The position numbers were made by a program, and so were the translations under genes. This document shows positions 400 through 21,242 of a DNA stretch of 41,268 nt, one piece after another. Below the pieces are notes generated by a model, which did no database searches, was not told the origin of the DNA, and saw nothing but the letters and a program-made list of their open reading frames with translations. The stretch covers positions 1-41,268 of the forward strand of contig NZ_SOBR01000011.1 of the NCBI RefSeq assembly GCF_004364315.1. Reading direction: 5' to 3'. Source of the stretch: Chromohalobacter marismortui (lineage in GTDB: Bacteria; Pseudomonadota; Gammaproteobacteria; Pseudomonadales; Halomonadaceae). Every line of letters starts with the position of its first letter. Position 1 is the first letter of the stretch.

Positions 400-1188
400 C
401 TAGCCGGCTGGCCGCCTCCACGCCTCGAACCATCCCAGTCCCGCCCGCGTGTCGGCACGGGGCTTGTATTCGCAGCCGATCCAGCCCTCGAAGCCGTCTG
501 CGTCCAACTGCTGGAAAAGCCACGGATAATTCACTTCGCCGGTATCGGGTTCGTGGCGCTCGGGCACGCCGGCGATCTGAAGATGGCCGACCCCCGCGCG
601 ATGACGCTGATAGGTCGTCCAGATATCCCCGTCCATGATCTGGGTGTGGTAGAAATCCATCTGCACCTTGACGTTGGGCTCGCCCAGTTCGGCCACGATG
701 GCGTGTCCCTCGGCCTGGTGGTTGAGGCAGTACCCCGGCATGTCGCGGGTATTGATGGGCTCGATCAGCAATTCGAGGTCGTGCTCGGCGAGGCGGCGGG
801 CGGCATGGCGCAGGTTGTCCAGGTACACCGCACGCCATGTTTCCCGTGAAACACCCGCGGGGGCCAGCCCGGCCATGGCATGCAGACGCGAGCAATTCAG
901 CGCCCGGGCGTAACGAATCGCGGTCTCGACGCTGTCGCGGAACTCCGCCTCGCGCCCCGGCAGGGCGGCGATGCCGCGCTCGCCGGCGTCCCAGTCGCCC
1001 GGCGGCAGGTTGAACAGCGCCTGCTGCAAGCCATGACGCTTCAACTCGGCAGCGATGTCATCGGCTTCGAACGCATAGGGGAACAGGAACTCGACCCCTT
1101 CGAAGCCGCAGGCGGCGGCCTCGGCGAAGCGCTCCATGAAGGGCACCTCGTTGAACATCATGGACAGGTTGGCGGCAAAGCGGGGCAT
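400..1188 (-). CDS. otnI: 2-oxo-tetronate isomerase (hydroxypyruvate isomerase family)
   Basis: The 262-residue protein has the xylose-isomerase-like TIM-barrel fold of the Hyi/OtnI family and its usual length of about 260. The two catalytic glutamates fall where the family has them: E143 in LLIEPINTRDMPGY and E240 in GCEYKP. The MDFYHTQ strand (about 177-183) supplies further metal ligands. In tetronate catabolism OtnI interconverts 2-oxo- and 3-oxo-tetronate, so the product of LtnD or DenD becomes the substrate of the kinase OtnK. It is the last gene of the minus-strand operon, 24 bp after otnC. Hydroxypyruvate isomerase activity cannot be excluded from sequence, but the neighbours favour OtnI. 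Confidence 0.88.
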   Translation of the reverse strand: MPRFAANLSMMFNEVPFMERFAEAAACGFEGVEFLFPYAFEADDIAAELKRHGLQQALFNLPPGDWDAGERGIAALPGREAEFRDSVETAIRYARALNCSRLHAMAGLAPAGVSRETWRAVYLDNLRHAARRLAEHDLELLIEPINTRDMPGYCLNHQAEGHAIVAELGEPNVKVQMDFYHTQIMDGDIWTTYQRHRAGVGHLQIAGVPERHEPDTGEVNYPWLFQQLDADGFEGWIGCEYKPRADTRAGLGWFEAWRRPAG

Positions 1189-1212
1189 GGGGAGACTCCT
1201 TTCAGAAAGTGC

Positions 1213-1872
1213 TTACCAGTGGGCGCCGAAGGCCTGACGCAGCTCGTCGATTTCCGCTTCGCCCAGGGTGCGCACATCGTGCTGGCGTAGCAGGAGATAC
1301 AGCTTGGCGGTTTCTTCCAGTTCCTCGATGGCGTTGCGTGCCGCTTCCAGGGTCTTGCCCGCCACCACGGGGCCGTGGTTGGCCAGCAACACCGCGCCAT
1401 GGGACTTGGCGTGTTCGCGTATCGCGTCGCCGAGGGCGGGATCGCCGGGACGGTAGTAAGGAATCAGCGGCAAACGCCCCACGCGCATGACGAAATACGG
1501 CGTGATGGGGGGCAGGCAGGAGCGTTCATCGAGGCCATTGAGGCACGAGACCGCCGCTGAGTGCGTGGCATGCAGGTGAATGATGCCGCCGGTATCGGGA
1601 CGCTGATCGTAGAAGGCGCGATGCAGGAACGACTCCTTGGTCGGTGGCTCGCCGTCGAGCAGGTTGCCGTCCCAGTCCAGCTTGGAAATCGCGGCGGGAT
1701 CGAGGGCGCCGAGGCTGGCGTTGGTCGGCGTCATCAGCCAGCCGTCATCGAGCTTGGCGCTGATGTTGCCGGAGGTGCCGGGCGCCATGCCCAATAGTCG
1801 GAAGGCGCGGCCGATCTCGGCGATCTCTTCGCGCAGGCGGTTTTCGGTGGTCGTGGTGCTGATGTGGCTCAT
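1213..1872 (-). CDS. otnC: 3-oxo-tetronate 4-phosphate decarboxylase (class II aldolase family)
   Basis: A 219-residue class II aldolase/adducin-fold protein. Expected zinc ligands are visible: H99 and H101 in GIIHLHATHS and H166 in LLANHGPVVAGKT, with E80 (PTKES) as the catalytic acid/base candidate. Known OtnC enzymes decarboxylate 3-oxo-tetronate 4-phosphate to dihydroxyacetone phosphate and CO2. The start chosen is the ATG that overlaps the otnK stop as ATGA; it has GGGGGA 8 nt upstream. An in-frame ATG at 1887 would add five residues. The neighbouring kinase and isomerase decide the call over fuculose-phosphate aldolase or other family members. Confidence 0.88.
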   Translation of the reverse strand: MSHISTTTTENRLREEIAEIGRAFRLLGMAPGTSGNISAKLDDGWLMTPTNASLGALDPAAISKLDWDGNLLDGEPPTKESFLHRAFYDQRPDTGGIIHLHATHSAAVSCLNGLDERSCLPPITPYFVMRVGRLPLIPYYRPGDPALGDAIREHAKSHGAVLLANHGPVVAGKTLEAARNAIEELEETAKLYLLLRQHDVRTLGEAEIDELRQAFGAHW

Positions 1873-3140
1873 GGCAACATCCCCCATGCCTTGGTCATGA
1901 AGTCCCGGGCGCCGAAGTTGCCCGACTTGAGAGTCAGGGCGAGCGGCGCCGGCGTGCCAAAGGTGGTGGTCCAGGGCACGCCGGGGTCGATGCTCGGGCC
2001 GATGCGCAAGCCCTGCACGCCAAGGGCGTTGACCACCGCGCCGGAGGTTTCGCCTCCCGCCACGAGCAAGCGCCGTACGCCATGGTGCTCGACGAGGGAC
2101 TGGGCGATCTCGGCCATGGCGCGTTCGACCAGGGCCCCTGCCTCCGCGACGCCGAGGGCCTCCTGCGCCCGTCGCACGTCTTCCGGCGAGGCGCTGGCAT
2201 ACAGCAGCACCGGGCCGCGATCGAGATGTTCTTCGGCCAGCGCGAGCGCCGCCGCGATGACCCCCTCGAAATCATCGGCCAGGGCCAGGGCGTCGAGGTA
2301 ATGGCTCGGGTAGTGATCGCGGGCATGTTCGAGCTGCGCCAGGGTGGCGCGCGAACAACTGCCGCTCAAGATCGCCTCTCGCCCGGCGATGGCGGGCAAT
2401 GCATCGGCTTGTCCTGCCGCAGGCAAGCGGTCGGCCAGGTTGGCGGGCAAGCCCAGGGCCAGCCCGGAGCCGGCGGTCACCAGGGGCAGGTGGCGACAGG
2501 CGTGCGCCAGGGTATGCAAATGCTGGGTGTCGATGGCGTCGCAAATGGCGATGCCCACGCCCGCCGCGCGCAGCGCCTGGATGCGGGCCTCGACGGCTTC
2601 GACACCCTCGCTGAGCGTGGCGTAGTCGATCAGATCGACCCGCTGGTGCGTCTGGGCGCCGAGAACGCGCACCAGATTGGCATCCGTCATGGGCGTGAGG
2701 GGGTGATCCTGCATGCCGCTTTCGTTGAGCGGCACGCCCCCCGCAAACAGGTAGCCGTTGTAGACGGTGCGCTGGTTGGCGGGCAGTGCCGGACAGGCCA
2801 CGGTGAAGTCGGTGTCCAGTGCCGTCATCAGCGCGTCGGTCACCGGCCCGATGTTGCCTGCGGGCGTGGAGTCGAACGTCGAGCAGTACTTGAAGTAGAA
2901 CTGCTCGCAGCCCTGGGCCTGCAACCACGCCAGCGCTTCGAGAGACTGCGCCACGGCCTCGTCGGCCGGCAGAGTGCGTGATTTAAGGGCGACGACCACC
3001 GCCTCGACGTCATCGTCCAGCGCCGTCGACGGGACGCCGATGGTCTGCAGCGTGCGCATGCCGGCACTGACCAGCATGCTCGCCACGTCCGTGGCGCCGG
3101 TGAAATCGTCGGCAATGCAACCGATGATGGGCATCGTCAT
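1869..3140 (-). CDS. otnK: 3-oxo-tetronate kinase (DUF1537 family)
   Basis: A 423-residue acid-sugar kinase of the former DUF1537 family. The N-terminal substrate domain starts with the hallmark GCIADDFTGATD (about 7-18). The C-terminal nucleotide domain carries the glycine-rich VAGGETSGAVVNALG. Length fits the family (about 420). It phosphorylates 3-oxo-tetronate at O4 with ATP, making the substrate of OtnC. Start and stop overlap both neighbours by 4 bp (ATGA at 3137-3140 and 1869-1872), so translation is probably coupled through ltnD-otnK-otnC. A GGAGGA sequence precedes the start. Confidence 0.92.
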   Translation of the reverse strand: MTMPIIGCIADDFTGATDVASMLVSAGMRTLQTIGVPSTALDDDVEAVVVALKSRTLPADEAVAQSLEALAWLQAQGCEQFYFKYCSTFDSTPAGNIGPVTDALMTALDTDFTVACPALPANQRTVYNGYLFAGGVPLNESGMQDHPLTPMTDANLVRVLGAQTHQRVDLIDYATLSEGVEAVEARIQALRAAGVGIAICDAIDTQHLHTLAHACRHLPLVTAGSGLALGLPANLADRLPAAGQADALPAIAGREAILSGSCSRATLAQLEHARDHYPSHYLDALALADDFEGVIAAALALAEEHLDRGPVLLYASASPEDVRRAQEALGVAEAGALVERAMAEIAQSLVEHHGVRRLLVAGGETSGAVVNALGVQGLRIGPSIDPGVPWTTTFGTPAPLALTLKSGNFGARDFMTKAWGMLP

Positions 3141-4069
3141 TCCTCCTCCCCTGTGTCGGCATCGTTGGCCGCGTGAGACGGCAACCCGAAGCCCGGAAAC
3201 GTCTTGACCACGGCGGCGTCATCGTCGCTGCCGTGGCCGAGCGCCGAGGCGTGGGTAAACATGCTGAGCGCCTGACTGGTCAGCGGCAGGGGAAACTTGT
3301 CGCGATGGGCGGTGTCGTGAACCAGCCCCAGATCCTTGACGAAGATATCCACCGCCGAACGCGGCGTGTAATCGTTGTCGAGAATGTGCGGTACGCGATT
3401 CTCGAACATCCATGAGTTGCCGGCGCTCTGGGTGATGACCTCATACAGCACCCGTGGGTCGCAGCCGCCGCGTATGCCATAGGCCATGGCCTCGGCGGCA
3501 GCGGCAATGTGCACGCCCGCCAACAGCTGATTGACCAGCTTGACCTGCGATCCCTGTCCCATCGCATCGCCAAGCCGGAAGACCTTGGCGGCGAGGGCGT
3601 CGAGGACCTCCTCGACGCTGTCGAAGACATCGTCAGGCCCCGAGGCCATGATCGTCAGCGCGCCTTGGGCGGCCTTGGCGGCGCCACCGGAAATCGGCGC
3701 ATCGAGCAGACGCAGGCCCCGGGTGGCGAGCTCGTCGCCCAGGGCGACTACGGCCTCCGGCGCGCAGGTGGCGCATGAGATGACCACGCTGCCGGGCGCC
3801 AGGCCGTCGGCGATGCCCTGCGGCCCGAACAGGACCTCGCGGGTCTGTTCGGCGTTGACGACCACGCTGACGACGACATCGACGTGGGCGGCCATCTCGG
3901 CGGGCGAGGCGACCGCCCGGCCACCATGAGCGTCTAATGCCTGCCTGGCGTCGGGTCTCAGGTCGCATCCCCAGGTCGTGAAGCCGGCATCGACCAATGA
4001 GGTCGCCATGCCCATTCCCATCGACCCCAGGCCGATGATCCCCACCCGCGCGCGTCGTGCTTGTGTCAT
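3137..4069 (-). CDS. ltnD: L-threonate dehydrogenase (beta-hydroxyacid dehydrogenase family)
   Basis: A 310-residue NAD-dependent 3-hydroxyacid dehydrogenase. The Rossmann motif GLGSMG is at 13-18, the substrate motif DAPISGG at 123-129, and the catalytic lysine K177 in QVKLVNQLLAG. LtnD oxidises L-threonate to 2-oxo-tetronate. The frame stays open upstream into the regulator gene, but the ATG at 4069 with AGGAA 7-8 nt before it and the Rossmann start right after fix the N-terminus. It lies 43 bp after the regulator and overlaps otnK by 4 bp. GarR/HIBADH relatives look alike; the operon supports LtnD. Confidence 0.88.
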   Translation of the reverse strand: MTQARRARVGIIGLGSMGMGMATSLVDAGFTTWGCDLRPDARQALDAHGGRAVASPAEMAAHVDVVVSVVVNAEQTREVLFGPQGIADGLAPGSVVISCATCAPEAVVALGDELATRGLRLLDAPISGGAAKAAQGALTIMASGPDDVFDSVEEVLDALAAKVFRLGDAMGQGSQVKLVNQLLAGVHIAAAAEAMAYGIRGGCDPRVLYEVITQSAGNSWMFENRVPHILDNDYTPRSAVDIFVKDLGLVHDTAHRDKFPLPLTSQALSMFTHASALGHGSDDDAAVVKTFPGFGLPSHAANDADTGEEE

Positions 4070-4112
4070 CTCGCGTTCCTTGTCTGTGGTTCTTTGATGA
4101 AACGGCCGTTGG

Positions 4113-4868
4113 TCAGATCGGCGTGTCGGTTGCGGTGTCCTCGAGACGTTCCAGCAGATCCGTCGGTGCCTGGCGCAGGCGCCATTCGGCATGCTCAAGG
4201 TGGCGTGCGGCGGCCTGGGCGGCGGCCTCTTCGTCGCCCTGGGCGATGGCATCGACGATCGCTTGATGCTCTTCGATGACCTGCGCCATGAACGTGTCGC
4301 GCAACGACTCATTGGTGCGTGTCACGGTAATGGCGTGATGCAAGAAACGGTTGTAGAAGTCGATGACCGCCGTGAAGTGCGTGTTGTTCGACGCCTCGGC
4401 GATGGCGCGATGAAAGGCCATGTCCTGATCGACGCCGTCGGCGCCGATTTCGACGGCCTCGTCGATATCGACCATGGCATTACGGATGCGGCGCAATTGG
4501 GAGGGCGTGCGGCGCTGCGCGGCCAGCCGCGCCGCCTCGACTTCCAGGGCACGGCGCAGTTCGAGCAGGCGGATGACCGATTGCAGCGATGGGTCGGGAA
4601 TCGCCAGGCGCAGTGCCACGGTGGGTACCTCGGCGACGAAGCTGCCGCTGCCGCGACGCGATGTGACCAGGCCGGCGTTACGCAGCATCGAAATGGCTTC
4701 GCGCACCACCGAACGGCTGATGCCATAGCGTTCGCCGAGCGCCGCCTCGGTGGGCAAACGCTCCCCGGGGCGCATCTCGCCGGTATGGATGGCGTGCGTC
4801 AACTGCCGTGCGACCTGCTCCGAGAGTTGGGTGCCACGGGTCGGTTGGGTCTCTGGGGTAGTGATCAC
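4113..4868 (-). CDS. FadR-subfamily GntR transcriptional regulator of the tetronate genes
   Basis: A 251-residue protein with an N-terminal winged helix (about 20-85; GERLPTEAALGERYGISRSV, then REAISMLRNAGLVTSRRGSG) and a C-terminal all-helical FCD ligand domain whose metal ligands are probably the D/H residues around DQDMAFHRAIAEASNN. It is the first gene of the minus-strand operon and is divergent from denD. A perfect FadR-type operator lies about 100 bp upstream. By analogy with tetronate loci it would repress both directions until a sugar acid or an intermediate binds; that is inferred. The last residues (about 230-251) are low-complexity and acidic. Confidence 0.85.
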   Translation of the reverse strand: MITTPETQPTRGTQLSEQVARQLTHAIHTGEMRPGERLPTEAALGERYGISRSVVREAISMLRNAGLVTSRRGSGSFVAEVPTVALRLAIPDPSLQSVIRLLELRRALEVEAARLAAQRRTPSQLRRIRNAMVDIDEAVEIGADGVDQDMAFHRAIAEASNNTHFTAVIDFYNRFLHHAITVTRTNESLRDTFMAQVIEEHQAIVDAIAQGDEEAAAQAAARHLEHAEWRLRQAPTDLLERLEDTATDTPI

Positions 4869-4964
4869 CGCTGTTCCTTCGTTGATCGCCGCGAAGCGTG
4901 GTACGGCCTCGCCAGTGATAGCGCTGAGGCGTCTCCGACTAATGGCGGTGTTGCCTCAATGGAT

Positions 4965-4975
4965 TTGTCAGACAA
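4965..4975. promoter_or_regulatory. FadR-family operator, TTGTCAGACAA
   Basis: A perfect 11-bp dyad (TTGTC-A-GACAA) matching the FadR-subfamily consensus TNGTNNNACNA at every fixed position. It lies in the 211-bp region between the GntR-type regulator and denD, 1 bp downstream of the minus-strand -10-like TATAAT. A bound repressor would therefore cover the minus-strand start site and could reach the denD promoter. Confidence 0.65.
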
Positions 4976-4976
4976 C

Positions 4977-4982
4977 ATTATA
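4977..4982 (-). promoter_or_regulatory. -10 element (TATAAT) of the regulator-ltnD-otnKCI operon
   Basis: On the minus strand this reads TATAAT, a full match to the sigma70 -10 consensus, in a locally AT-rich stretch. No good -35 is seen; TTGTGT lies 15 nt upstream, which is short. The 5' leader to the regulator ATG would be about 100 nt. No convincing sigma70 promoter for the plus-strand denD was found in the same region. Confidence 0.4.
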
Positions 4983-5079
4983 AATAACGCGGTGACGACA
5001 CAATACGTCTTTGGATCAATGTCGCACTGCCAGTAGAGATTCATGCGAAGTATCGCTTCGCTCGACCGGGGATAAGTGA

Positions 5080-6039
5080 ATGCAAGTCATCGTGACCGGA
5101 GGTGCCGGCTTTCTCGGCGCACGCTTGATCCAGACGCTGCTCGAGGGTGGACGGCGTATTGAGGGAGAGACGATTACACGGGTGACGTCGATCGACCTCG
5201 CGCCCTGTCCTCTCGACGATCCACGCGTCGAGTCGTGGGTCGGGGATGTCGCCGACAAAGCGCTGATCGAGCGTGCTCTGAAGGACGATACGCTCGCCGT
5301 CTGCCATCTGGCGGCCGTGGTCAGCTCCCAGGCGGAGGCCGATTTCGAGCTGGGCATGCGCGTCAATCTCGAGGCAACACAGGCCCTGCTCGATGTCTGT
5401 CGTGCCCATCCGCGCCGCTTGCGTTTCTTGTTCGCCAGCTCTCTGGCGGTGTTTGGCCCCGGACTGGCACAGCCGGTACCCGAAGAGACCGGCCCTCAGC
5501 CGCGTTCTTCCTATGGCGCGCAAAAAGCCATCGGTGAGCTACTGGTCAACGACTACAGCCGGCGGGGCTTCATCGACGGACGCGTCTGCCGGCTACCGAC
5601 CATCGTGGCGCGACCCGGCAAGCCCAATCAGGCGGCCTCTTCGTTTGCCAGCTCGATCATTCGCGAACCGCTGGCGGGACAGCGTGCCGTGTGCCCTGTG
5701 GATCCCGACCTGCCGCTTTGGCTGTCGTCGCCGCGCGCGGTAGTCGGCAACCTGTGCCATGCCTTGCAGCTCGGCGGTGGCGCGCTGGACGAGTGGCGTA
5801 CGCTCAACTTGCCAGGCATCACCGTCACGGTGGCGCAACTGCTGGGCGCCTTGGAACGCCAGGCAGGGGCCGAGACGCGGGCGCTGGTGGATTTCGAGCC
5901 GGATGCTGCCATCGACAAGATCGTCGCGAGCTGGCCGGGAGGTCTGGATATCGAGCGTCCGCTATCGCTGGGGTTCCAGGCCGACGCCGATGTCGACGCC
6001 GTCATTCATGCCTATCGCGAGGATTACTTGAATACCTGA
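5080..6039 (+). CDS. denD: D-erythronate dehydrogenase (extended SDR family)
   Basis: A 319-residue extended short-chain dehydrogenase. The NAD motif GGAGFLG is at 7-13, the catalytic serine at S120/S121 (FASSLAVFG), and Y145 and K149 in SYGAQKAIGE complete the triad. DenD enzymes oxidise D-erythronate at C2 to 2-oxo-tetronate. The resemblance to DenD plus the adjacent otnI-otnC-otnK set supports this over a nucleotide-sugar epimerase. GGGGAT precedes the ATG by 7 nt. A small perfect hairpin (GCGAAG/CTTCGC, 5045-5061) lies in the leader. denD begins the plus-strand half of the locus, opposite the regulator. Confidence 0.85.
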   Translation: MQVIVTGGAGFLGARLIQTLLEGGRRIEGETITRVTSIDLAPCPLDDPRVESWVGDVADKALIERALKDDTLAVCHLAAVVSSQAEADFELGMRVNLEATQALLDVCRAHPRRLRFLFASSLAVFGPGLAQPVPEETGPQPRSSYGAQKAIGELLVNDYSRRGFIDGRVCRLPTIVARPGKPNQAASSFASSIIREPLAGQRAVCPVDPDLPLWLSSPRAVVGNLCHALQLGGGALDEWRTLNLPGITVTVAQLLGALERQAGAETRALVDFEPDAAIDKIVASWPGGLDIERPLSLGFQADADVDAVIHAYREDYLNT

Positions 6040-6164
6040 CGCCCGTCGAGGCCCGGCGGCGTTAGTGGCCGCCCGTGGCATCGGCGACATTCCACGCACG
6101 CTTGCATCCTTGGATACAACAACGCTGCTTAGCCAGTCACAACAATGCACAGGAGTACGCCACC

Positions 6165-7553
6165 ATGACGGAAACCGCTGCAGGCCCACAGGTCATCATC
6201 GGCCTGGGTATCGCTATCTTCGTAATGATCGCGCTGGTCTTGAAAACCCGCGTGCACGCCTTGCTGGCGCTCATCATCGCTGCCTCGATCGCCGGCTTGA
6301 TCGGCGGCATGCCGCCCAATGCGGTGATCGGAGCGATCACTGACGGTTTCGGTAGCACGCTGTCGACCATTGGGTTGGTCATCGGCTTCGGGGTGATGAT
6401 GGGACGTATCCTCGAAGTCTCGGGCGCCGGTCAGCGCATGGCCTACTCCATTCTCAAGATGCTCGGCAAGGAGCGCGAGGACTGGGCGATGGCACTGACC
6501 GGGTATATCGTCTCGATTCCGATCTTCTGCGACTCTGCCTACGTGATCCTCAACCCCCTGGTCAGGGCGCTGGCACGCAACAGCGGCCGGTCTGTACTGG
6601 CGTTGGGCATCGCCCTGGCGTCGGGGTTGGCCATCACCCACAGTGCCGTGCCGCCGACACCCGGGCCACTCGGGGTGGCGGGTATCTTCGGTGTCGATGT
6701 CGGCCTGATGATCGCCTGGGGGATCGTCTTCACGATACCTGCCTTGATCGTCATGGTGCTTTACGCACGGTTCATGGGGCCGCGTATCGAGGCGATGATC
6801 GAGCGTGATGTACCCGATACGTTACGTCGCGATGAAGATGAAGAAGACCCTCTCGCCGGTCAGCGTCCCATGGAAGAGCTGCCCACATTGCTGAAGTCGG
6901 TAATGCCCATCGCACTACCAATCGCTTTGATCTTTCTCAATACGTTGGTGACCGCGATAGTGGGTGAGGGCGACGATCCCGCCCTGGTGGTGCAGATCGT
7001 CCAGTTCGTGGGCCACCCGGTAATTGCCGTGGGCATCGGGGTCCTGGTGGCGGTGTACGGACTGGTACCCAAGATGCCGCGCGACCAAGTGTTGTCGCAT
7101 CTCGAAAAAGGCGTCGAAAGCGCCGGCATCATTTTGCTGGTGACCGGCGCCGGGGGCGCTCTGGGGGCCGTATTGCGTGCCAGCGGGGCTGGCGATTACA
7201 TCGGCGAAAGCGTGGCATCGCTGGCCATGCCGGCTTTCCTGATTCCCTTCATTATCGCCACGCTGGTGCGTTTCGTACAGGGTAGCGGCACTGTATCGAT
7301 GATCACCGGGGCATCGATTTCTGCGCCGATTCTATCGTCCATACCGGATGTCAATCTGGTGCTGGCGGCTCAGGCAGCGTGTCTCGGTGGGCTGTTCTTC
7401 AGCTATTTCAATGACAGCTATTTCTGGGTCGTCAATCGCATGCTCGGCGTGAGAACCGCCAAACACCAGCTATTGGTGCTATCGGTGCCCACGACGCTGG
7501 GGTGGGCGGCTGCGCTGGTCGCCTTGTTCATCGCCAATGCCTTCGTGGGTTGA
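6165..7553 (+). CDS. GntP-family gluconate/sugar-acid:H+ symporter
   Basis: A 462-residue polytopic inner-membrane protein with about 12 hydrophobic segments and GntP features such as [13 protein letters not shown] (about 115-128), [15 protein letters not shown], and [18 protein letters not shown] near the C-terminus. GntP proteins import gluconate-like acids with protons. The frame is open 90 nt further upstream, but the ATG at 6165 has AGGAG 9 nt before it and starts just ahead of the first membrane helix. It follows denD by 125 bp and is the likely uptake system for erythronate or threonate; the substrate is inferred from context. Confidence 0.88.
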
Positions 7554-7588
7554 GCGACTTCCGGTCCGCATGGAAGAGGAAAGATGCT

Positions 7589-8761
7589 ATGAAAATCACG
7601 CGAGTCAGGGCCCGTGTCTTCGAATGGAAAGGCGACACGGTGCCGCCGCAGCCACACTTCTGCACCAACGCCATGGACGTATTGTGGGATCGTGGCGATG
7701 CCATGGGCAGTTTCCGGTTCCATGGCTGGACGGTGGTCGAGGTCGAAACGGACGAAGGGATCGTCGGGCTCGGCAACGTGGCCCTGGCGCCACGTGTCGC
7801 CAAGACGATCGTCGATCAGCACCTCGCCCCCTTGGTCATCGGCCAGGACCCGTTCGACTACGAGTACCTGTGGCAGCGCATGTATCGCGCGACGCTGGCG
7901 TGGGGCCGGCGCGGCATCGGCATGGCGGCAATCTCGGGAGTCGACATCGCCATCTGGGACGTCATGGGCAAGGCGCTCGGCAAGCCGGTGTTCAAGCTGC
8001 TGGGCGGTCGGACCAAGGAGAAGATCCCGTGCTACGCCTCCAAGCTCTACAACACCGATCGCGAGACGATGCAGCGCGAGGCACAAGCCTATCTCGACCA
8101 GGGATTCGCGGCGATGAAGATGCGCTTCGGTTACGGGCCCAAGGACGGGCCCCGCGGCATGCGTGAGAACCTCAAAAGCGTGGCCGCGGTGCGCGAGGTG
8201 ATCGGCGAGGACATCGACCTGATGGCCGACTGCTACATGGGATGGAACCTCGACTACACGCGACGCATGCTGCCGAAACTGGAACCCTTTGAGCTGCGTT
8301 GGTTGGAGGAGCCGGTGATCGCCGATGACATCGACGGTTACGCCGAGCTCAATCGCATGGCACCGATGCCGATCTCCGGCGGCGAGCACGAATTCACCGT
8401 GCACGGTTTCCGACAACTCCTGGAGAAGAAGGCGGTGTCGGTGATTCAGTACGATACCAACCGGGTCGGCGGCATCAGCGTAGCGCGCAAGATCAACGCC
8501 ATGGCCGAGGCCTTCGAGATCCCGGTGATTCCGCATGCGGGTCAGATGCACAACTACCACCTGACGATGGCCTCGCTGGCCTCGCCGATGTCGGAGTTCT
8601 TCCCGGTGCATGACGTCGAGATCGGTAACGAGCTCTTCTACTACTTGTTCGAGGGCGATCCAGAGCCGGTCGAGGGGTATCTCGATCTGGATGACACGAC
8701 GCCCGGCCTCGGGCTGACGCTCAATACGCGCCATCTCGATCGCTTCCATATCATCGAGTGA
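7589..8761 (+). CDS. Enolase-superfamily acid-sugar dehydratase (rhamnonate-dehydratase-like)
   Basis: A 390-residue mandelate racemase/muconate lactonizing-type protein: capping domain at about 1-125, then a TIM barrel. Metal ligands are D214 (LMADCYMGW), E240 (RWLEEP) and E266 (SGGEHEF). An Asp/His dyad is present as D289 (QYDTNRVGG) and H316 ([11 protein letters not shown]). K177 sits in MKMRF; there is no KxK motif. The SGGEHE strand and the His/Asp dyad recall L-rhamnonate dehydratase, which converts an aldonic acid to its 2-keto-3-deoxy form. The ATG at 7589 with AGAGGAAAG upstream is preferred to upstream in-frame starts. The true substrate is unknown; dehydration is not a step of the known erythronate route. 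Confidence 0.8.
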
Positions 8762-11414: not shown

Positions 11415-12686
11415 TCAGCCCTGGCCGAGTACCTCGACGCGTTGCCGGCGGTGGGCACGGCGTAGCATGCGTAGCCGCGAGCGGGCTTCGTCACGCTCGA
11501 GATAGCAGCCTTGCAGCCAACGGCGCCCGCCCTGGCCGACATCGAAGGCATCGCGGGCATGCAACAAGCGGCGGTTGTCGAAGATCACCAGGTCGCCGGG
11601 GGTGTAGGTAAAACGCAGCGCGAACTCGGGCTCTCTGAGCAGGCGCTGCAGCGCCATCAAGGCGGCATAGGCAGGCTCCACGTCCTCGAACGGTGCCATC
11701 AGCGGGCCGCGCAGGAAATCGGCGATGCGCACCTCGTCGAAATTGCCGTCGTCATCGAGCTTGATCATCGGTGCGTACCACACATGATCGGTGGTGCGGG
11801 CCGTATTGGCGTAGCACCAGCGTACACGCGTGAGCGTCGCGAAATGCTCGGGATGACGCTCGCGCAGGGCCTCGGCCATGGCGAAGCCGTCCATCATCAC
11901 CGCTTCACCGCCGATGGTGTCGTTTTCCAGGCAATGCAGCAGCTGCAAGCCCGGCTGATACTCGCGGGTCGGCAGATCGACGTGCGGTGGCAGGGCGATC
12001 GAGGTGTAGGCATTGGAATCGGGATCGGGCTTGGCACGCACGTCGAATAGCGTGCCGAAGTTGGTGGCGCGCGGCGGGCCGATGCGCCGGGCGATGGCAT
12101 CCAGGCTGCCGGGCTCGGTGGGCAGGTTGCGTAGCCGCACCAGGCCTTCGCCGATGACGGCCTCGAGGGCGCTTTCCAGGCAGGCATCCGGTACCAGAGG
12201 ATCATCGTCGGTGTCCAGCCAGTCGCGCGCATCGAGGGTCGTGGGCGCGTCGCGTTCGCTGCCTTTCCATAATCTGGCAGGGGGCAGTGGGGCGTCGAGT
12301 TCCGCCAAATGCGTATAGTCGTGGGCGCGGAGCCAGCCGGGATGAAAGCGCAGGCGGCGTTGCTCCGGGGCGAAGACGATCTCCAGCGCACCGGCGTCGT
12401 CGAGGCGCGCCTCGACGACGGTGGGCCACGCCTCGAGACGCGACAGGTCGAGGATGCGCTCGCGCGTGGCCGGATTGACGGTGCTGTCGTCGGCGGCGTT
12501 TTCGCGCAGCCAGATGCTGTGGTACTGGCTGACGCGACCGTCTTCCCAGCGCACTTCCACCTGGCGGGGCGTGTGGCTCACGTTGTGGATGGCGACCTCG
12601 ACCGGCCAGGCGTCGTAATCAGGCGTCGCGGGGAGCGTGCCGCCGGGCGTATTGGCAGACGTGGCAGCAGGCGTGGAAAGGGGCAT
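11415..12686 (-). CDS. Gamma-butyrobetaine hydroxylase-like 2-oxoglutarate dioxygenase
   Basis: A 423-residue protein with an N-terminal GBBH-like (DUF971) domain (about 25-125) and a C-terminal TauD/TfdA double-stranded beta-helix (about 165-410). Iron ligands are H235 and D237 (PPHVDLPTRE) and H376 (RRLLHARDAF); R388 can bind 2-oxoglutarate. The expected reaction is gamma-butyrobetaine plus 2-oxoglutarate and O2 to L-carnitine, feeding cdhCAB. The start at 12686 has AAGGA 7 nt upstream; an in-frame ATG at 12722 would add 12 residues. Oddly, the N-terminal cysteines that bind zinc in human BBOX1 are absent (WLREN is followed by AADDSTV). The gene converges on cdhB and lies 92 bp after cdhR. 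Confidence 0.82.
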   Translation of the reverse strand: MPLSTPAATSANTPGGTLPATPDYDAWPVEVAIHNVSHTPRQVEVRWEDGRVSQYHSIWLRENAADDSTVNPATRERILDLSRLEAWPTVVEARLDDAGALEIVFAPEQRRLRFHPGWLRAHDYTHLAELDAPLPPARLWKGSERDAPTTLDARDWLDTDDDPLVPDACLESALEAVIGEGLVRLRNLPTEPGSLDAIARRIGPPRATNFGTLFDVRAKPDPDSNAYTSIALPPHVDLPTREYQPGLQLLHCLENDTIGGEAVMMDGFAMAEALRERHPEHFATLTRVRWCYANTARTTDHVWYAPMIKLDDDGNFDEVRIADFLRGPLMAPFEDVEPAYAALMALQRLLREPEFALRFTYTPGDLVIFDNRRLLHARDAFDVGQGGRRWLQGCYLERDEARSRLRMLRRAHRRQRVEVLGQG

Positions 12687-12778
12687 GACGGCATCCTTGG
12701 CTACAAGACATGGCCCCAGCATGGCCTGACGCGTGGCCCCTATTTACACCCCAAGCGACGGCTTCTTGCCGTAAACCG

Positions 12779-13904: not shown

Positions 13905-14759
13905 TCACTCTTTGTCGAGCCAGCTGTCGACGAGATCGCGATGTCCCTCGATCCACTGCTTGGCGCCTTGCGTGGGGTCGCCGACCTTCTCGATGGTCAG
14001 CATGAGATCGGCCAACTGGGCGTGGCTCATGTGCCAAGTGTCGAGCATCTCGGTAACCTCGGGGTGGCGCTCGCCGAAGCCCTTGGGCGACATCCACATG
14101 ATATCGTCACCCCCGCCGTAGCTCTGCTTGGGATCCTCGAGGGCCTTGAGGTCGTACTGCGCGTAGGCCCAGTGCGGCTGCCAGAGCGTGACCGCGATGG
14201 GTTCCTCGTTGGCGTAGGCTTCCTCGAGGGCCGCGAGCATGGCCGGGCCGGAGCTGTTCAACTGACGGAACGGCAGATCGTAACGCTCGATGGCGTTTAC
14301 GGTCTCGCCGGAGATGGCCGAGCCCGACTCGATGCCGATGATGGTGGGCTGGCCCTGATAGGCGAAGCGCTCGGCGTTGGCTTTGAGGTCGCTGATGCTG
14401 TCGATGTCGTTCATGTAGGCGGGCACCACCAGTTCGTCCTGGGCGCCGTCGTACCAGGCATCGTGAACGGCGATCTTGTCTTCATAGGGCTTGAGGTACT
14501 GGGCGTCGCCGTTGGGCAGCCAGACTTCCAGCGAGATATCCAGATCGCCCTGTGCCAGCCCGCTGAACAGCACGCTTTTGCCGGTGGTGGTCAACTCGAC
14601 GTCGTAGCCTTGCGCTTCGAGCAATTGCTGCCACATGTGCGAGACGGCGATGTTTTCCGACCAGTTGTTGGTGCCGATGGTCAGCGTGTCATCGGCCGAG
14701 GCGGTCATCGAGAGGCCGGCCAGGCCGCAGGCGAGGAACAGGGGAGTCAACGGTTTCAT
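13905..14759 (-). CDS. caiX: Betaine/carnitine ABC-type substrate-binding protein (CaiX-like)
   Basis: A 284-residue OpuAC-type periplasmic receptor with a clear signal peptide (about 1-22, ending MTASA before DDTLTIG). Motifs of quaternary-amine receptors follow: NWSENIAVSHMW near the N-terminus and IAVTLWQPHWAYAQYDL (about 193-209), with W/Y residues suitable for an aromatic cage. No ABC permease or ATPase gene lies in the window, so like Pseudomonas CaiX it probably feeds a core Cbc-type transporter encoded elsewhere. AAGGAT is 5 nt before the ATG. It is 79 bp downstream of the M24 gene and may be co-transcribed with it, so its ligand could be that module's substrate instead of carnitine. 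Confidence 0.82.
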   Translation of the reverse strand: MKPLTPLFLACGLAGLSMTASADDTLTIGTNNWSENIAVSHMWQQLLEAQGYDVELTTTGKSVLFSGLAQGDLDISLEVWLPNGDAQYLKPYEDKIAVHDAWYDGAQDELVVPAYMNDIDSISDLKANAERFAYQGQPTIIGIESGSAISGETVNAIERYDLPFRQLNSSGPAMLAALEEAYANEEPIAVTLWQPHWAYAQYDLKALEDPKQSYGGGDDIMWMSPKGFGERHPEVTEMLDTWHMSHAQLADLMLTIEKVGDPTQGAKQWIEGHRDLVDSWLDKE

Positions 14760-14838
14760 ACGTATCCTTTTTTGTGTGGATCAAGTGGATGATGAGGGTG
14801 TCGGGCGGTGCATCGGCATCGCCGATCGGGCAGATGGG

Positions 14839-16107
14839 TCATTCTGCCATCAGCGTGTCGGAATAGCCGTAGGTCGAGAGGCGTTCGATGCCGTCTTCGG
14901 TGATCAGCACCTGTTCTTCCAGCTTGACGCCCTCGGTGCCGTCGCGATGGCCGATATAGGCCTCGACGCACAGCGTCATGCCGGGTTCGATGTCACCATC
15001 GTAGCCGACCTCGTCCCAGTCCATGTCGTGGGCGATCAGTGGCCATTCGCCGGTCATGCCGCAGCCGTGGACGATGTCCAGGTAGCGATTCTCGCGATAG
15101 CCGTCGGGGATCGGCCACGCTTGTTGCGAGTAGTCGCGAAAGCTCATGCCGGGGCGCAGCAGGGCGATGTTGCGTTCGAGCTGGTCGGCGGCCATGCGAT
15201 ACAGCGCCTTCTGCTCGGCGTTGGGCGCGCCCGCGCCAGGCACGTGGAAGGTCCGCGAGAAATCCGTGTAGTAGCCGAAGCAGCCCACGATGTCGGTATC
15301 GAAGGCGACCAGCTCACCCGGGGCGATGACCTTGTCCGAGCATTCCTGGAACCACGGGTTGGTGCGCGCGCCGGAACTGAGCAGGCGGGTCTCGGCGTAC
15401 TCGCCACCGGTGGCCAGCACATGCTGGTTGAAGATCGACCACAGCTCGTTTTCGCTCATCCCGGGCCGAATGGCGGCTTCCATACGGGTCATCGCGGCTT
15501 CGGTCAGGGTCACGGAGCGGTGGATGAGCGCCAGCTCGTCGACACTCTTGATCGACTTGGCGCCCTCGACCACGGTGGCGGCGTCGGTCAGTTGGAAACC
15601 GGCCTGGCCCAGCGCCTCGATGGCGCCGGTGGGCGCGGACTCGATGCCCAGGCGCTGGCCTTGGGTATGTGAACGTATGAACAGGTCCCGGATGTCATCG
15701 ACGAAGGCCTGGGTATGTGCTGCGCAGCGTGGGCCGCTGTACTGCGGCATTACCGCCCGGGCGGGATGCACCTCGTCGAGCAATTCGGCGTTGGCCGCCA
15801 GATGCAGGCAGGCGCTGAACTCAAACAGCACCACCGGGCCGTCCGCCGCGACGTAAAGATAACGGGCCGGGTTGCGCTGCGAGTAAACCTGCATGTTGCG
15901 CACGCCGCAGGCATAGCGAATGTTGATGGGATCGAACAGGATCACCGCGTCCAGTTCGTGGTGCTTCATCTGCTGGCGCAGGCGTTGCAGCCGGTAGCGC
16001 TCGACGCGCGAAAGCAGCGCGGCATCGAGCGTGGCGTGACGAAAGCCGCCGTCGGTGTAGGGGCCGCCCGTGGGGACAGACCCGGCGAGTGAAACGATAT
16101 CGCCCAT
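14839..16107 (-). CDS. M24-fold metalloenzyme related to DMSP lyase DddP
   Basis: A 422-residue creatinase/prolidase-type protein: N-terminal domain about 1-180, C-terminal pita-bread domain about 190-415. Six metal ligands are visible: D270 and D272 (AFDTDIVG), D282 (YTDFSRT), H347 (IVHGCGM), E382 (CVEAY) and E397 (KLEEQ). Their spacing (2, 10, 65, 35, 15) nearly equals that remembered for DddP (D295, D297, D307, H371, E406, E421), and RTNPWFQEC and the GEWPL region are also DddP-like. The DddP catalytic aspartate (D377, six residues after the histidine) is replaced by G353. So the fold and metal site fit DddP but the chemistry may differ. It lies 57 bp after the dioxygenase and upstream of the caiX-like gene. 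Alternatives: Xaa-Pro peptidase, creatinase. Confidence 0.75.
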   Translation of the reverse strand: MGDIVSLAGSVPTGGPYTDGGFRHATLDAALLSRVERYRLQRLRQQMKHHELDAVILFDPINIRYACGVRNMQVYSQRNPARYLYVAADGPVVLFEFSACLHLAANAELLDEVHPARAVMPQYSGPRCAAHTQAFVDDIRDLFIRSHTQGQRLGIESAPTGAIEALGQAGFQLTDAATVVEGAKSIKSVDELALIHRSVTLTEAAMTRMEAAIRPGMSENELWSIFNQHVLATGGEYAETRLLSSGARTNPWFQECSDKVIAPGELVAFDTDIVGCFGYYTDFSRTFHVPGAGAPNAEQKALYRMAADQLERNIALLRPGMSFRDYSQQAWPIPDGYRENRYLDIVHGCGMTGEWPLIAHDMDWDEVGYDGDIEPGMTLCVEAYIGHRDGTEGVKLEEQVLITEDGIERLSTYGYSDTLMAE

Positions 16108-16164
16108 TGAAAGGCATCCTTGTAAAGAGTGAACGAGATGCTGGGTGACGTACGCGGGGTGTCG

Positions 16165-17061
16165 TCAGCCCATGAGCGCGTCGTGACGGCGCTGATTGTC
16201 GGCGTCGATGTGCTGTTGCGTGACGCGGCCGTAGATTCGCTTGGTGTGCTCCAGGCTGCCCATCATGTCGGGCGTCTTGGCGTAGCCGAGCAGGGTGCAC
16301 AGACGCTGTCCCTTGGCGGCGGCGACGCGGTGCATGGAGTAGCGTCCCTTGAACAGCTGCAAGTCGCCGGTGTTGAGCGTCAATGATTCGACATCAGTGT
16401 GATCGCCTTCGAGTATGCGCTGCACGGCCGCGAAATTTTCCTCGCCCGGGCGACGGATGTTGGGTGCGTACTGGAATTCGCCGCCTTCGTTGGGGCGCCG
16501 CGTCATCAGGCTGACGATGAATTCGTTGGTATCGAAGTGCCAGGGCAGCTCGGTGTCGTCGGGCATCACGTTGATGACCAGCCCCGCGATGGGGTCGGCG
16601 AACTCGTAGATCACCGACTCTTCGAGGCAATCGGCCACGAAGCGTTGAAAGTCGGGGTCGCGATAGAGCTGCTGGACGATGGCGTCCTCGGGAATCAGGT
16701 CGCGCGCCACGAAACCGTTGGTGTAGTGCTGGAAGAAGCGAGCGGGGTGATCCTCGGGCAGTGACGGATCATCCGGCGTGACGTAGGGATTGACGTTGTT
16801 GTCCGAGTAGAACGCCTTGGGCGCCAGGGCCTCGCTTTCCTCGCGCAGCGGCTCGATGAGGTCCTCGCGGATGAACTTCGACAACAGGGCGCAGCCGTCG
16901 GTGCGCAGTTGATCGCGCACGCTCTCGACAGTGGCCCGGTAGGCGTCGCTGTCGCGCGCCAGGATCGGGTAGCGTTCGAGATCGATGAACCGTGCCAGGG
17001 GATGATGCTCGGCGGTGACGTCTTGCTCGGTGGTCTGTGTTGCGAGTGTTGCCTGTGACAT
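16165..17061 (-). CDS. Fe(II)/2-oxoglutarate dioxygenase of unknown substrate (ArpA/BesD-like)
   Basis: A 298-residue cupin-fold oxygenase. The iron triad is H175-x-D177 (PWHFDTNEF) and H244 (YSMHRVAA), with R253 positioned to bind 2-oxoglutarate. The GGEFQYAPNIR stretch (193-203) resembles the ArpA/BesD group, some members of which halogenate or hydroxylate free amino acids. Here the carboxylate ligand D177 is kept, so hydroxylation (not halogenation) is expected. AGGAGGGG precedes the ATG. The substrate is unknown; co-location with an onium receptor and a DddP-like enzyme suggests a betaine-type compound. It opens the likely three-gene minus-strand unit and is followed 57 bp later by the M24 gene. 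Confidence 0.75.
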   Translation of the reverse strand: MSQATLATQTTEQDVTAEHHPLARFIDLERYPILARDSDAYRATVESVRDQLRTDGCALLSKFIREDLIEPLREESEALAPKAFYSDNNVNPYVTPDDPSLPEDHPARFFQHYTNGFVARDLIPEDAIVQQLYRDPDFQRFVADCLEESVIYEFADPIAGLVINVMPDDTELPWHFDTNEFIVSLMTRRPNEGGEFQYAPNIRRPGEENFAAVQRILEGDHTDVESLTLNTGDLQLFKGRYSMHRVAAAKGQRLCTLLGYAKTPDMMGSLEHTKRIYGRVTQQHIDADNQRRHDALMG

Positions 17062-17086
17062 GAGATCGCCCCTCCTGATGGATCGT

Positions 17087-17136
17087 GGTTAGCCAGTCGT
17101 GGCCGGCCAGTCGGCGCTAGCCGGCCATGGCTAACC
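17087..17136. repeat. Nested long inverted repeat upstream of the dioxygenase gene
   Basis: GGTTAGCCA (17087-17095) pairs perfectly with TGGCTAACC (17128-17136). Inside it TGGCCGGC (17100-17107) pairs with GCCGGCCA (17120-17127), with a 12-nt loop and a 4-nt bulge on one side. The motif is echoed by CTAACCGGTCGTGACTAG just to the right. It lies between the LysR gene and the dioxygenase start, both minus strand, so it is either the LysR terminator or a leader/operator element of the dioxygenase unit. Confidence 0.6.
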
Positions 17137-17260
17137 GGTCGTGACTAGAAAGTGGCGATACGGTAAAAGCCCGGGGAGCGTGAAACTAATGAGAATGTCC
17201 GGCCATCTGCGACGAGATTCTTATCATTCGGTCTGAGCCGCTTGGCGACGCGTCTCGCGC

Positions 17261-18145
17261 TCACTCATCGGCGCGATAGAGATGGCGTAGCGTGTCCGCC
17301 AGCGGTTCGGCGACGGCGGCGATGTGGGGCGTCTGCGTATAGGCCAGGTACCAGGGAATGCGCGGGATATCGCCGGCCAGGGGGCGCATGACGACGTGGC
17401 CGGCCTGATGGGCGTCCCGGGCGGCCCAGCGCGACAGGATGCTCACGCCCTTGCCGGCGGCGACCAGCTCGAGGATCAGGGCGACCGACTCGATCTGTAC
17501 CATGTGCGAGGGGTAGACGCCGGCGGGCTGGAAGAAATGCTCGAACTCGTGGCCGGATTCGGGCGTGATGCTGTAAGTGAAGTGGCGCCCCTGATCGAAG
17601 ACTTCGGCGGGCACGGCATCACGCTGTGCATAAGGGTGCTCCGTTGGCAACACGGCCACCAGCGGCTCCTCGAACAGCAACTGGTGGGCGATGCCGCGCT
17701 GCGAAGGGACTTCGATCATGCAGATCATGTCGACCCGGTTGGCGAGCAGGGCCGTGGTCATGTCCGCCATGGGCAAGCGCACCAGGTCGATATCGCGCTC
17801 ATGCTGGTCGTAGAGATGCGGGATCGCCCGCGAGAAGGTGTCGTAGGGGCCGATGCCCAGACGCAGGGCGGGCTCGGCGCGGCGAGCCAGTTGCCACGCC
17901 TCGAGCTCGGCGTTGCGTAGGCGGGGTAGCACGTCGTGCGCGGCGTCGAGCAGACGCTCGCCCGAGGCGGAAAGCGTCAGCCGACGGCCTTCGCGATGGA
18001 AGAGCGCGACGCCCAGGCGGCGTTCCATCTCCCGAATGCGATGCGTCGCCGCCGGCTGGGTGATGCCGATGGCGGCGGCGGCATCGTGTACCGTGCCGTG
18101 GGTCGCGATGGCGTCGATCAATACGTAATACTTGATATCCAGCAT
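17261..18145 (-). CDS. LysR-family transcriptional regulator
   Basis: A 294-residue LysR protein: N-terminal winged helix (about 3-62; AAAAIGITQPAATHRIREME, then RRLGVALFHREGRR) and a two-lobed periplasmic-binding-type effector domain (about 90-290). It reads in the same direction as the dioxygenase-M24-receptor genes, 199 bp upstream, and is divergent from the ankyrin gene. The recognition helix and length are typical. No T-N11-A site was assigned with confidence. Control of the adjacent module is plausible but inferred; other LysR targets are possible. The Shine-Dalgarno region is weak. Confidence 0.88.
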   Translation of the reverse strand: MLDIKYYVLIDAIATHGTVHDAAAAIGITQPAATHRIREMERRLGVALFHREGRRLTLSASGERLLDAAHDVLPRLRNAELEAWQLARRAEPALRLGIGPYDTFSRAIPHLYDQHERDIDLVRLPMADMTTALLANRVDMICMIEVPSQRGIAHQLLFEEPLVAVLPTEHPYAQRDAVPAEVFDQGRHFTYSITPESGHEFEHFFQPAGVYPSHMVQIESVALILELVAAGKGVSILSRWAARDAHQAGHVVMRPLAGDIPRIPWYLAYTQTPHIAAVAEPLADTLRHLYRADE

Positions 18146-18891: not shown

Positions 18892-19278
<387 letters not shown>

Positions 19279-19327
19279 TTATGCCCAACGATCATGCTTC
19301 CAAGCATACACCGCTGGTCGCGGGATT

Positions 19328-19351
19328 AAAAAAAGCCCCCCGAAGGGGGCC
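19328..19351 (-). terminator. Intrinsic terminator after amtB
   Basis: On the minus strand GGCCCCCTTCGGGGGGC folds into a GC stem with a small TTCG-type loop, followed by TTTTTTT. It lies 38 bp past the amtB stop codon and separates amtB from the downstream P-II gene. Confidence 0.9.
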
Positions 19352-19388
19352 AGGGGAGCACGCCAGCTCACTCGGTGTGTCGGCTCTC

Positions 19389-20639
19389 TTACTTCTTGCC
19401 GACGGAAAATTCGGGATAGGCTTCCAGGCCGCATTCGGCCAGGTCGACCCCTTCGTATTCTTCTTCCTCGCTGACTCGTACGCCCATCACGGACTTGAGG
19501 ATCAGCCACACGATCAGACTCGCGATGAAGCACCACAGGAAGATGGCGACGGCGCCGATGATCTGCGCGCCGAAGGAGGCGCTGGCATTGGTGACAGGCA
19601 CCACCAGAACGCCCCACAGGCCGGCCACGCCGTGCGCGGAGATGGCACCCACCGGATCGTCGATCTTCAGCTTGTCCAGCGCCACGATGGAGACGACGAC
19701 CAGCAACCCGCCAACGGCACCGATGAGCGTGGCGCCCAGGCCGGTGGGGGATAGCGGATCGGCGGTGATCGCGACCAGGCCGGCGATGGCACCGTTGAGC
19801 GCCATGGTCAGGTCGGCCTTGCGGAACCAGATCTTGGCGAGAATCAGTGCGGCGATTACTCCGCCCGCAGCCGCAGCGTTGGTGTTGACCAGCACCTGCG
19901 CCATGTTATTGGCGGAATCGATGTTGGAGACCATCAGCTCGCTGCCGCCGTTGAAGCCGAACCAGCCCATCCACAGGATGAAGGTCCCCAGCGTCGCCAG
20001 CGGCAGGTTGGCGCCGGGAATGGCGTAGATCGCGCCGTTCTTGCCGTACTTGCCCTTGCGCGGTCCGAGGACAATGACGCCAGCCAAGGCGGCGGCGGCC
20101 CCTGCCATGTGAACGATGCCCGAACCGGCATAGTCGGAGTAACCCAGTTCGGCGAGCCAGCCGCCGCCCCAGGTCCAGTAGCCCGACGTCGGATAGATGA
20201 TCGCGGTCATCACCACGGCGAAGGCCAGGAAGGCCCAGAGTTTCATGCGCTCTGCCACGGCGCCGGAAACGATGGACATGGCGGTCGCCACGAACACCAC
20301 CTGGAAGAAGAAGTCGGCCCGGTTGGAATAATAGATATCGCCGTTGCTACCCAGCACTTGATCGACGCTGTTTTCGCCGCCCAGCAGGAAGCCCAGGCTC
20401 GGCAGGAAGCCGCCCGCGCCACTGGAATACATCAAGTGATAGCTGAACAGCAGATACATGGTGCAAGAGATGGCGAACAACACCACGTTCTTGGTCAGTA
20501 TCTCCGCCGTGTTCTTGGCGCGGACCAGGCCCGCCTCGAGCATGGCGAAGCCGGCGGCCATCCACATGACCAGCACGGCGCAGACCAGAAAGTAGAAGGT
20601 GTCGAGCGCGTACGATAGCTGCGTAATATCTTCAGTCAT
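19389..20639 (-). CDS. amtB: Ammonium transporter AmtB
   Basis: A 416-residue inner-membrane ammonia channel with 11 to 12 hydrophobic segments. Signature residues are visible: WMAAGFAMLEAGLVRAKN near the N-terminus, and the pore histidine pair in GIVHMAGAAAALAG and AISAHGVAGLWG. The acidic C-terminal tail ends in a region able to meet P-II. It lacks an obvious cleavable signal sequence; the N-terminus (MTEDITQLSYALDTFYF) runs directly into the first helix. It begins 27 bp after the upstream P-II gene, so the two form a glnK-amtB operon driven by the sigma54 promoter at 21046-21061. Confidence 0.95.
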   Translation of the reverse strand: MTEDITQLSYALDTFYFLVCAVLVMWMAAGFAMLEAGLVRAKNTAEILTKNVVLFAISCTMYLLFSYHLMYSSGAGGFLPSLGFLLGGENSVDQVLGSNGDIYYSNRADFFFQVVFVATAMSIVSGAVAERMKLWAFLAFAVVMTAIIYPTSGYWTWGGGWLAELGYSDYAGSGIVHMAGAAAALAGVIVLGPRKGKYGKNGAIYAIPGANLPLATLGTFILWMGWFGFNGGSELMVSNIDSANNMAQVLVNTNAAAAGGVIAALILAKIWFRKADLTMALNGAIAGLVAITADPLSPTGLGATLIGAVGGLLVVVSIVALDKLKIDDPVGAISAHGVAGLWGVLVVPVTNASASFGAQIIGAVAIFLWCFIASLIVWLILKSVMGVRVSEEEEYEGVDLAECGLEAYPEFSVGKK

Positions 20640-20666
20640 TTATTGTGTCTCCCTTCAGCCCTTGCC

Positions 20667-21242
<576 letters not shown>

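Follow-up and report, generated by a model that had tools for sequence, protein, structure and literature searches.

We propose that four adjacent genes on the minus strand of the window, the whole 41,268-nucleotide stretch of Chromohalobacter marismortui DNA analyzed here (contig NZ_SOBR01000011.1), form one module that breaks down a betaine-like onium carboxylate, and we put the probability of this reading at roughly 55%. The compound would be captured by a periplasmic receptor, hydroxylated by an Fe(II)/2-oxoglutarate (2OG) dioxygenase and then cleaved, in its hydroxylated form, by a metalloenzyme of the M24 fold, with induction by a LysR-type regulator. Saline and root-associated habitats offer betaines and other onium compounds as major sources of carbon and nitrogen. 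The features of the module are as follows.

17261..18145, minus strand: LysR-type regulator, first gene of the module (open reading frame; PF03466, 102.9 bits; PF00126)
17186..17225, minus strand: block between the LysR and dioxygenase genes, a possible LysR operator or promoter of the enzyme genes
16165..17061, minus strand: Fe(II)/2OG dioxygenase, HalD/BesD-related, with the hydroxylase-type HxD...H triad (H175, D177, H244)
14839..16107, minus strand: M24-fold metalloenzyme of the "G class", with the metal site of DddP present and Gly353 in place of the DddP base Asp377
13905..14759, minus strand: orphan OpuAC-type periplasmic receptor with a Trp cage (PF04069; alignment with 2b4l)

The four open reading frames lay at the positions and in the order (LysR, dioxygenase, M24, receptor) given by the original prediction. 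The gap between the LysR and dioxygenase genes was 199 bp, and the gaps of 57 bp (dioxygenase-M24) and 79 bp (M24-receptor) reported earlier agreed with the coordinates. The dioxygenase matched PF23169 (HalD) with 51 bits against a cut-off of 26, its sole Pfam match at E 1e-3. The M24 protein matched PF00557 (112.5 bits) and Creatinase_N (40.8 bits), above cut-off like the LysR matches, and the receptor matched PF04069 (OpuAC) with 229 bits against a cut-off of 21.2. The 17186-17225 block lay within a stretch that was partly conserved in an alignment of 12 intergenic regions, from 12 loci of the window's branch (defined below). No Rfam match was found in the window at the gathering threshold.

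One line of evidence for the proposal is the pairing of the two enzyme genes. In 151 genomes of the bacterial family to which the window's genome belongs, dioxygenase matches at E 1e-3 and M24 matches at E 1e-40 were collected and cross-matched. The original prediction had named rare co-occurrence of the two enzymes as the outcome that would speak against it; an M24 gene lay directly downstream, on the same strand, of 101 of the 107 dioxygenase matches, and five of the six exceptions belonged to a distant class of 34-35% identity. Both enzymes were encoded in 67 genomes, the dioxygenase only in 3, the M24 enzyme only in 2 and neither in 79. In the family, the two genes occur together far more often than chance would allow, and they are a recurrent unit. 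The window's genome itself holds three pairs, with 43-48% mutual identity. In all 118 placed pairs, both genes were on the same strand with M24 downstream, a figure that is not from a random sample because the loci came from searches seeded with both proteins and from hand-chosen loci, solo cases among the latter. Some genomes were present under two handles, and the 118 pairs reduced to 112 distinct ones. A LysR gene was near 115 of the 118.

The named loci represent the best 80 of at least 569 relatives, and an M24 match was found in 72 of these best 80. The eight without it were three from Roseibium/Labrenzia and five from Nocardia; one Nocardia locus (L127) ends at the dioxygenase, so that its neighbors lie outside its sequence. 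Dioxygenase and M24 distances were correlated across 47 nonredundant pairs (r = 0.97; none of 2,000 permutations as high), a correlation that is also expected from long shared ancestry alone. Literature searches at the title and abstract level returned no paper on the dioxygenase-M24 pair.

We next compared the M24 enzyme with DddP, a lyase of dimethylsulfoniopropionate (DMSP). The nearest solved chains to the window protein were DddPs (E about 1e-73), and the six DddP metal ligands were kept in all 118 paired loci. The equivalent of Tyr366 was kept in 116 of 118, and the Asn-Pro-Trp stretch was also conserved. In a structural study of RdDddP, Tyr366 and Asp377 are named as invariant in DddP lyases, and Asp377 is favored as the base (PMC4108388). 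At the position of this Asp (353 in the window protein), the 112 distinct paired M24 proteins had Gly in 109, Asn in 2, Ala in 1 and Asp in none. Against the NCBIfam DddP equivalog NF043017, the window protein scored 330.3 bits and did not reach the cut-off of 600, which two Roseibium proteins with DddP residues (482 and 499 bits) also missed; four other G-class proteins scored 292-322 bits and three DddPs scored 739-818 bits. Six positions (window 68, 70, 75, 78, 280, and 353) read D-T/S-W-H-C-D in the DddP class and G-R-Y/F-R-Y-G in 108 of the 112 distinct paired proteins, Trp95 of DddP being Tyr75 in the window protein. Several of these substitutions, from Trp to Tyr/Phe and from Asp to Gly, would enlarge the site, and two others introduce Arg; such changes would fit a larger hydroxylated substrate.

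A tree was built from 145 M24 rows thinned to 31, with the remote match L209 left out. Twenty of the 31 rows formed one clade with 100/99 support, which held the G class and included one row with Ala353 and one cut-short sequence. The two Asn-bearing rows (L114 and L124), both paired, were sister to this clade, and nine rows belonged to the DddP class, separate from it. None of the eight genomic DddP-class rows adjoined a dioxygenase gene, where for loci L198-L209 (DddP-class rows L201-L208 included) the flank reached only 1.5 kb past the match and "unpaired" refers to that distance; in L074, also of the DddP class, a dioxygenase lay several kb off. The ninth row is RdDddP, which stands outside this neighbor count. 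These results indicate, as far as sequence can tell, that the M24 enzyme and DddP are sisters, that the former lacks the DddP base and that it is no DMSP lyase of known type. The earlier description of this enzyme as DddP-like thus stood for the fold and metal site and failed for Asp377 and Trp95, both of which are replaced.

Two other assignments of the M24 protein were tried. In an alignment with prolidase 5giu, the His of its PHG motif was opposite F253 and the His of its VHE motif opposite G353 of the window protein. We take these two His residues to be catalytic in prolidase, and a peptidase reading (prolidase, aminopeptidase P) was rejected because both positions are replaced. Ectoine hydrolase DoeA was rejected on the scores of its models NF038259 (61.6 of 575 bits) and TIGR02993 (38.9 of 613 bits).

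The original prediction had pointed to ArpA/BesD-type oxygenases, and fold comparison showed the dioxygenase to be BesD/HalD-like: HalB, lysine hydroxylase, HalA, and BesD were the closest in a structural list that is not exhaustive of families. A single-sequence search of the PDB with the dioxygenase at E 1e-3 found no chain. D177 was invariant in 16 aligned sequences. In halogenases of the HalD/BesD family, Gly or Ala presumably replaces the Asp of the iron triad (HxG), and a halogenase reading was rejected because the window enzyme has HxD with D177. Close homologues in a nocardial family gave a hint to the product. In all nine, the dioxygenase gene adjoined a carnitine-type acyltransferase gene, and the product is therefore probably a hydroxy-betaine. 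A methyltransferase gene (weak Pfam match) lay between the two in eight of the nine genomes. No M24 homologue was found at 1e-15 in any of the four dioxygenase-bearing Nocardia genomes that were searched. The nocardial operons of dioxygenase, methyltransferase, and carnitine-type acyltransferase (L125:7884-11481 and L221-L228) may belong to an unrecognized pathway that makes carnitine.

To consider the substrate, the 112 distinct pairs were sorted into branches by the best match among three dioxygenase references, and neighboring genes were counted within 4.5 kb. In the window's branch, an OpuAC receptor or BCCT carrier was near 26 of 28 pairs. In the second branch, a transporter was near 48 of 52 pairs (OpuAC, 19; BCCT, 3; ProX-type ATP-binding cassette [ABC], 9; OppA-type ABC, 17), and OpuAC, BCCT or ProX was near 31 of the 52. 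In the third, OsmF was near 4 of 32. Transporter type was exchanged even between close relatives, OppA-type genes occurring in most Pseudomonas loci and OpuAC in P. oryzihabitans. A betaine-like onium compound is the probable substrate, given the many pairs with an OpuAC receptor, a BCCT carrier or a ProX-type ABC system nearby. No substrate could be identified from the MR/MLE enolase, AldA-like aldehyde dehydrogenase, Fe-ADH and GMC genes that neighbor pairs of the second branch. In the second branch, a further 2OG-Fe(II) oxygenase gene (PF03171 with DIOX_N) was observed between M24 and receptor at L036:7758-8825, in the window's genome, and such an intervening PF03171 gene was seen in Chromohalobacter and Salinicola loci.

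In all 46 receptors beside pairs and solo M24 genes, duplicates included, the Trp residues that align with the cage of OpuAC were conserved. The window receptor scored 111.8 of 379 bits on the choline receptor model TIGR03414, below cut-off. No permease gene lies beside it; a ChoW-like permease gene (315 bits, where the model requires 363) is on contig C3 of the genome together with a receptor gene of its own, and the window receptor may share this permease. The receptor follows M24 in many loci that have no carnitine (cdh) genes, and we therefore assign it to this module and not to the adjacent cdh cluster. That cluster had been suggested to take up a betaine product of the pair, a suggestion that did not hold up: among 118 pairs, carnitine genes were near only six, all Chromohalobacter loci including the window (two probably from the same genome), and the cdh genes therefore say little about the product of the pair. 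A seventh flagged locus, L083, proved to be merely a 24% AraC match. Taken together, the interpretation offered by the original prediction is partly supported. Its betaine-solute module gained from the conserved Trp cage and from betaine-type transporters in other lineages, and the onium nature of the substrate, the order of steps, and the reaction are still inferred.

From the families, folds, residue patterns, and gene context observed above, we infer the substrate, the site of hydroxylation, the bond broken, and the order of steps as follows. The OpuAC-type receptor, judged by its family and cage residues, would capture the onium compound and pass it to a permease encoded elsewhere. The dioxygenase, whose family is clear, would convert it to a carnitine-like hydroxy-betaine. 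The M24-fold enzyme, having a two-metal site and no proton-removing Asp, would then cleave the hydroxylated product, and the LysR protein would induce the enzyme genes when the compound is present. In DddP, the substrate carboxylate is thought to be held on the metals while the alpha proton is removed and the sulfonium leaves (PMC4108388). In the M24 enzyme of the window, the new hydroxyl may supply the role of the DddP base, because the enzyme lacks that base and is regularly encoded next to a hydroxylase. The hydroxyl would be activated on the metals, and C-C (retro-aldol) or C-onium cleavage would follow without initial removal of an alpha proton. A hydroxylated M24 substrate is favored because loss of the base goes with gain of the dioxygenase, Asp353 being kept in none of the 112 distinct pairs and none of the eight genomic DddP-class rows being paired.

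Of these two chemistries we favor the first, although as a specific suggestion we hold it to be possible at most: the M24 enzyme may perform a retro-aldol reaction through a metal-held enediolate of the DddP type, yielding an aldehyde and a small acid. A carnitine-like acid would then give acetate and betaine aldehyde, and a 3-hydroxy amino-acid betaine would give glycine betaine and an aldehyde. We know of no retro-aldol route of onium breakdown from carnitine-like acids. A still broader scheme is speculative and unlikely to be right as a whole. In this scheme, the HalD-type dioxygenase would be an unrecognized trimethylammonio-acid hydroxylase unrelated to gamma-butyrobetaine dioxygenase (BBOX). 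In Nocardia, it would make carnitine for the adjoining acyltransferase, and in Halomonadaceae, Pseudomonas, and Burkholderiaceae, it would feed a DddP-fold retro-aldolase that turns carnitine-like acids into betaine aldehyde and acetate, DddP and the G class being sister groups that differ by one catalytic base.

Several observations weigh against the proposed module. One dioxygenase with 48% identity (in genome G045), the sixth exception in the family count, had no adjoining M24 gene, and 12 of the 113 M24 matches in the family genomes were unpaired. Solo G-class M24 genes without an adjoining dioxygenase were found at eight loci (seven distinct) with Phe75, in addition to one cut-short sequence, and a receptor gene was present at six of these eight. 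Most unpaired G-class members fell into a single subclade that has Phe75 and an accompanying LysR gene. In a draw of 398 genomes from the phylum, 23 had a dioxygenase match; of 20 loci outside the family, 18 were examined, and M24 adjoined the dioxygenase in 3 of 7 high-scoring loci and in none of 11 low-scoring ones. The tree position of the nocardial dioxygenases was weakly supported. An OppA-type ABC system adjoins 17 pairs, all from Pseudomonas, which could point to a substrate that is larger or resembles a peptide. Of the 32 distinct pairs in the third branch, 28 had no betaine-type transporter within 4.5 kb, and a methylmalonate-semialdehyde dehydrogenase gene was near 15, which is not explained by retro-aldol cleavage of either proposed substrate type without further steps.

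We weighed four other explanations. In an unlikely one, the substrate of the two enzymes would be an amino acid or resemble a peptide, and the receptor would serve only the neighboring carnitine cluster. BesD-type enzymes act on free amino acids, structures of such enzymes with lysine and ornithine were among the fold matches, and this explanation would also suit the peptidase fold of M24 and the OppA-type neighbors in Pseudomonas. However, the two prolidase His positions are replaced, and many loci that lack carnitine genes have receptor, BCCT or ProX genes near the pair.

We consider it rather improbable that the M24 enzyme acts first, by hydrolysis or elimination, and that the dioxygenase then oxidizes the released onium acid. 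Gene order does not set reaction order, and the solo G-class M24 genes that occur with receptor and LysR genes would be natural in that case, but the lack of the base in every distinct paired M24 protein, together with the absence of a dioxygenase beside any genomic DddP-class row, fits a hydroxylated M24 substrate better, and the four Nocardia genomes searched hold the dioxygenase without such an M24 gene. Quite improbable, too, is a dealkylation in which the dioxygenase hydroxylates the carbon beside N or S, the product collapses to an aldehyde with loss of the onium or methyl group, and a side product goes to the M24 enzyme. Aldehyde dehydrogenase genes near many pairs, including the methylmalonate-semialdehyde dehydrogenase of the third branch, would agree with this, yet it would leave a dedicated M24 partner without an evident role and does not fit the nocardial acyltransferase link. 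That the M24 enzyme is an ordinary DddP converting DMSP to dimethyl sulfide and acrylate beside a bystander dioxygenase is very improbable, and the DMSP lyase reading was rejected, since the close match to solved DddPs and the retained metal ligands and Tyr366 are outweighed by Gly in place of the favored base that is described as invariant among DddP lyases (PMC4108388), by the low score on the DddP model, by the separate clade, and by the close pairing with the dioxygenase.

The proposed module was also compared with known systems. It shares with DddP (PDB 4b28 and 4rzy) the fold (by sequence), the six metal ligands, Tyr366, and the Asn-Pro-Trp stretch, but differs in Gly353 for Asp377, Tyr75 for Trp95 and changes at 68, 70, 78, and 280, and in that 101 of the 113 M24 matches in the window's bacterial family lie directly after a dioxygenase gene. 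The dioxygenase differs from the BesD/HalB/HalD amino-acid halogenases and lysine hydroxylases of PF23169 in its HxD motif and its partner genes. TmpA/TmpB, a system with a LysR regulator, breaks down trimethylaminoethylphosphonate in two steps: the 2OG hydroxylase TmpA acts on the onium compound, and the metal enzyme TmpB, an HD-type oxygenase, then cleaves the hydroxylated form. The window pair would work in the same way but with other protein families: TmpA is of the TauD/BBOX type, and its model NF049936 matches the BBOX-like gene of the window and not the HalD-type dioxygenase. Judged by the nocardial acyltransferase link, the dioxygenase probably carries out the same kind of reaction as BBOX, hydroxylation of a trimethylammonio acid, although BBOX belongs to the TauD family and the window enzyme to HalD (PF23169). 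The receptor has the OpuAC domain and Trp cage of OpuAC/CaiX/ChoX-type receptors but stands without permease genes and is tied to the enzyme pair.

If the proposal is true, a class of proteins that resemble DddP without cleaving DMSP is widespread and recognizable by one residue and a neighboring gene. Counts of dddP genes are used to gauge marine DMSP cleavage (PMC10686828). The six positions that separate the DddP class from the G class would then offer a ready annotation test. The dioxygenase-M24 pair, recurrent in many bacteria, may be an undescribed route of onium-compound use, and the nocardial operon would point to unrecognized carnitine synthesis in bacteria.

Other observations concern relatives of the two enzymes. 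Units of LysR and Phe75 G-class M24 genes were seen at L156-L160 and L051:8675-10864, with an OpuAC receptor in all but L158 and no dioxygenase directly beside M24. In the window's genome, the third pair (L037:9596-14437) is followed by a CoA-acylating methylmalonate-semialdehyde dehydrogenase gene over the model cut-off, and two further copies over cut-off are present in the genome. Solitary dioxygenase homologues occurred in another family of the phylum (L183-L186), two of the loci being beside genes that by eye resemble those for RNase J, coaX, and birA; these four genomes also encode DddP-class M24 proteins elsewhere. At L190:3648-7627 and L197:3552-7482, the neighbors of a distant HalD-type dioxygenase gene were a GntR-like gene and two that resemble the enolase superfamily, as judged by eye and from weak matches.

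Elsewhere in the window, the carnitine cluster includes a BBOX-like TauD dioxygenase gene at 11415-12722, which scored below the cut-offs of both the gamma-butyrobetaine dioxygenase model (309.1 of 414.75) and the TmpA model (292.5 of 400). Positions 400-8761 resemble a cluster for the breakdown of four-carbon sugar acids, with an SBD_N/NBD_C kinase, a class II aldolase, dehydrogenases, a GntP permease, and an enolase-type gene. At 18892-21197, an ammonium-transporter-like gene is flanked on both sides by P-II-like genes, as named by eye from the translations.

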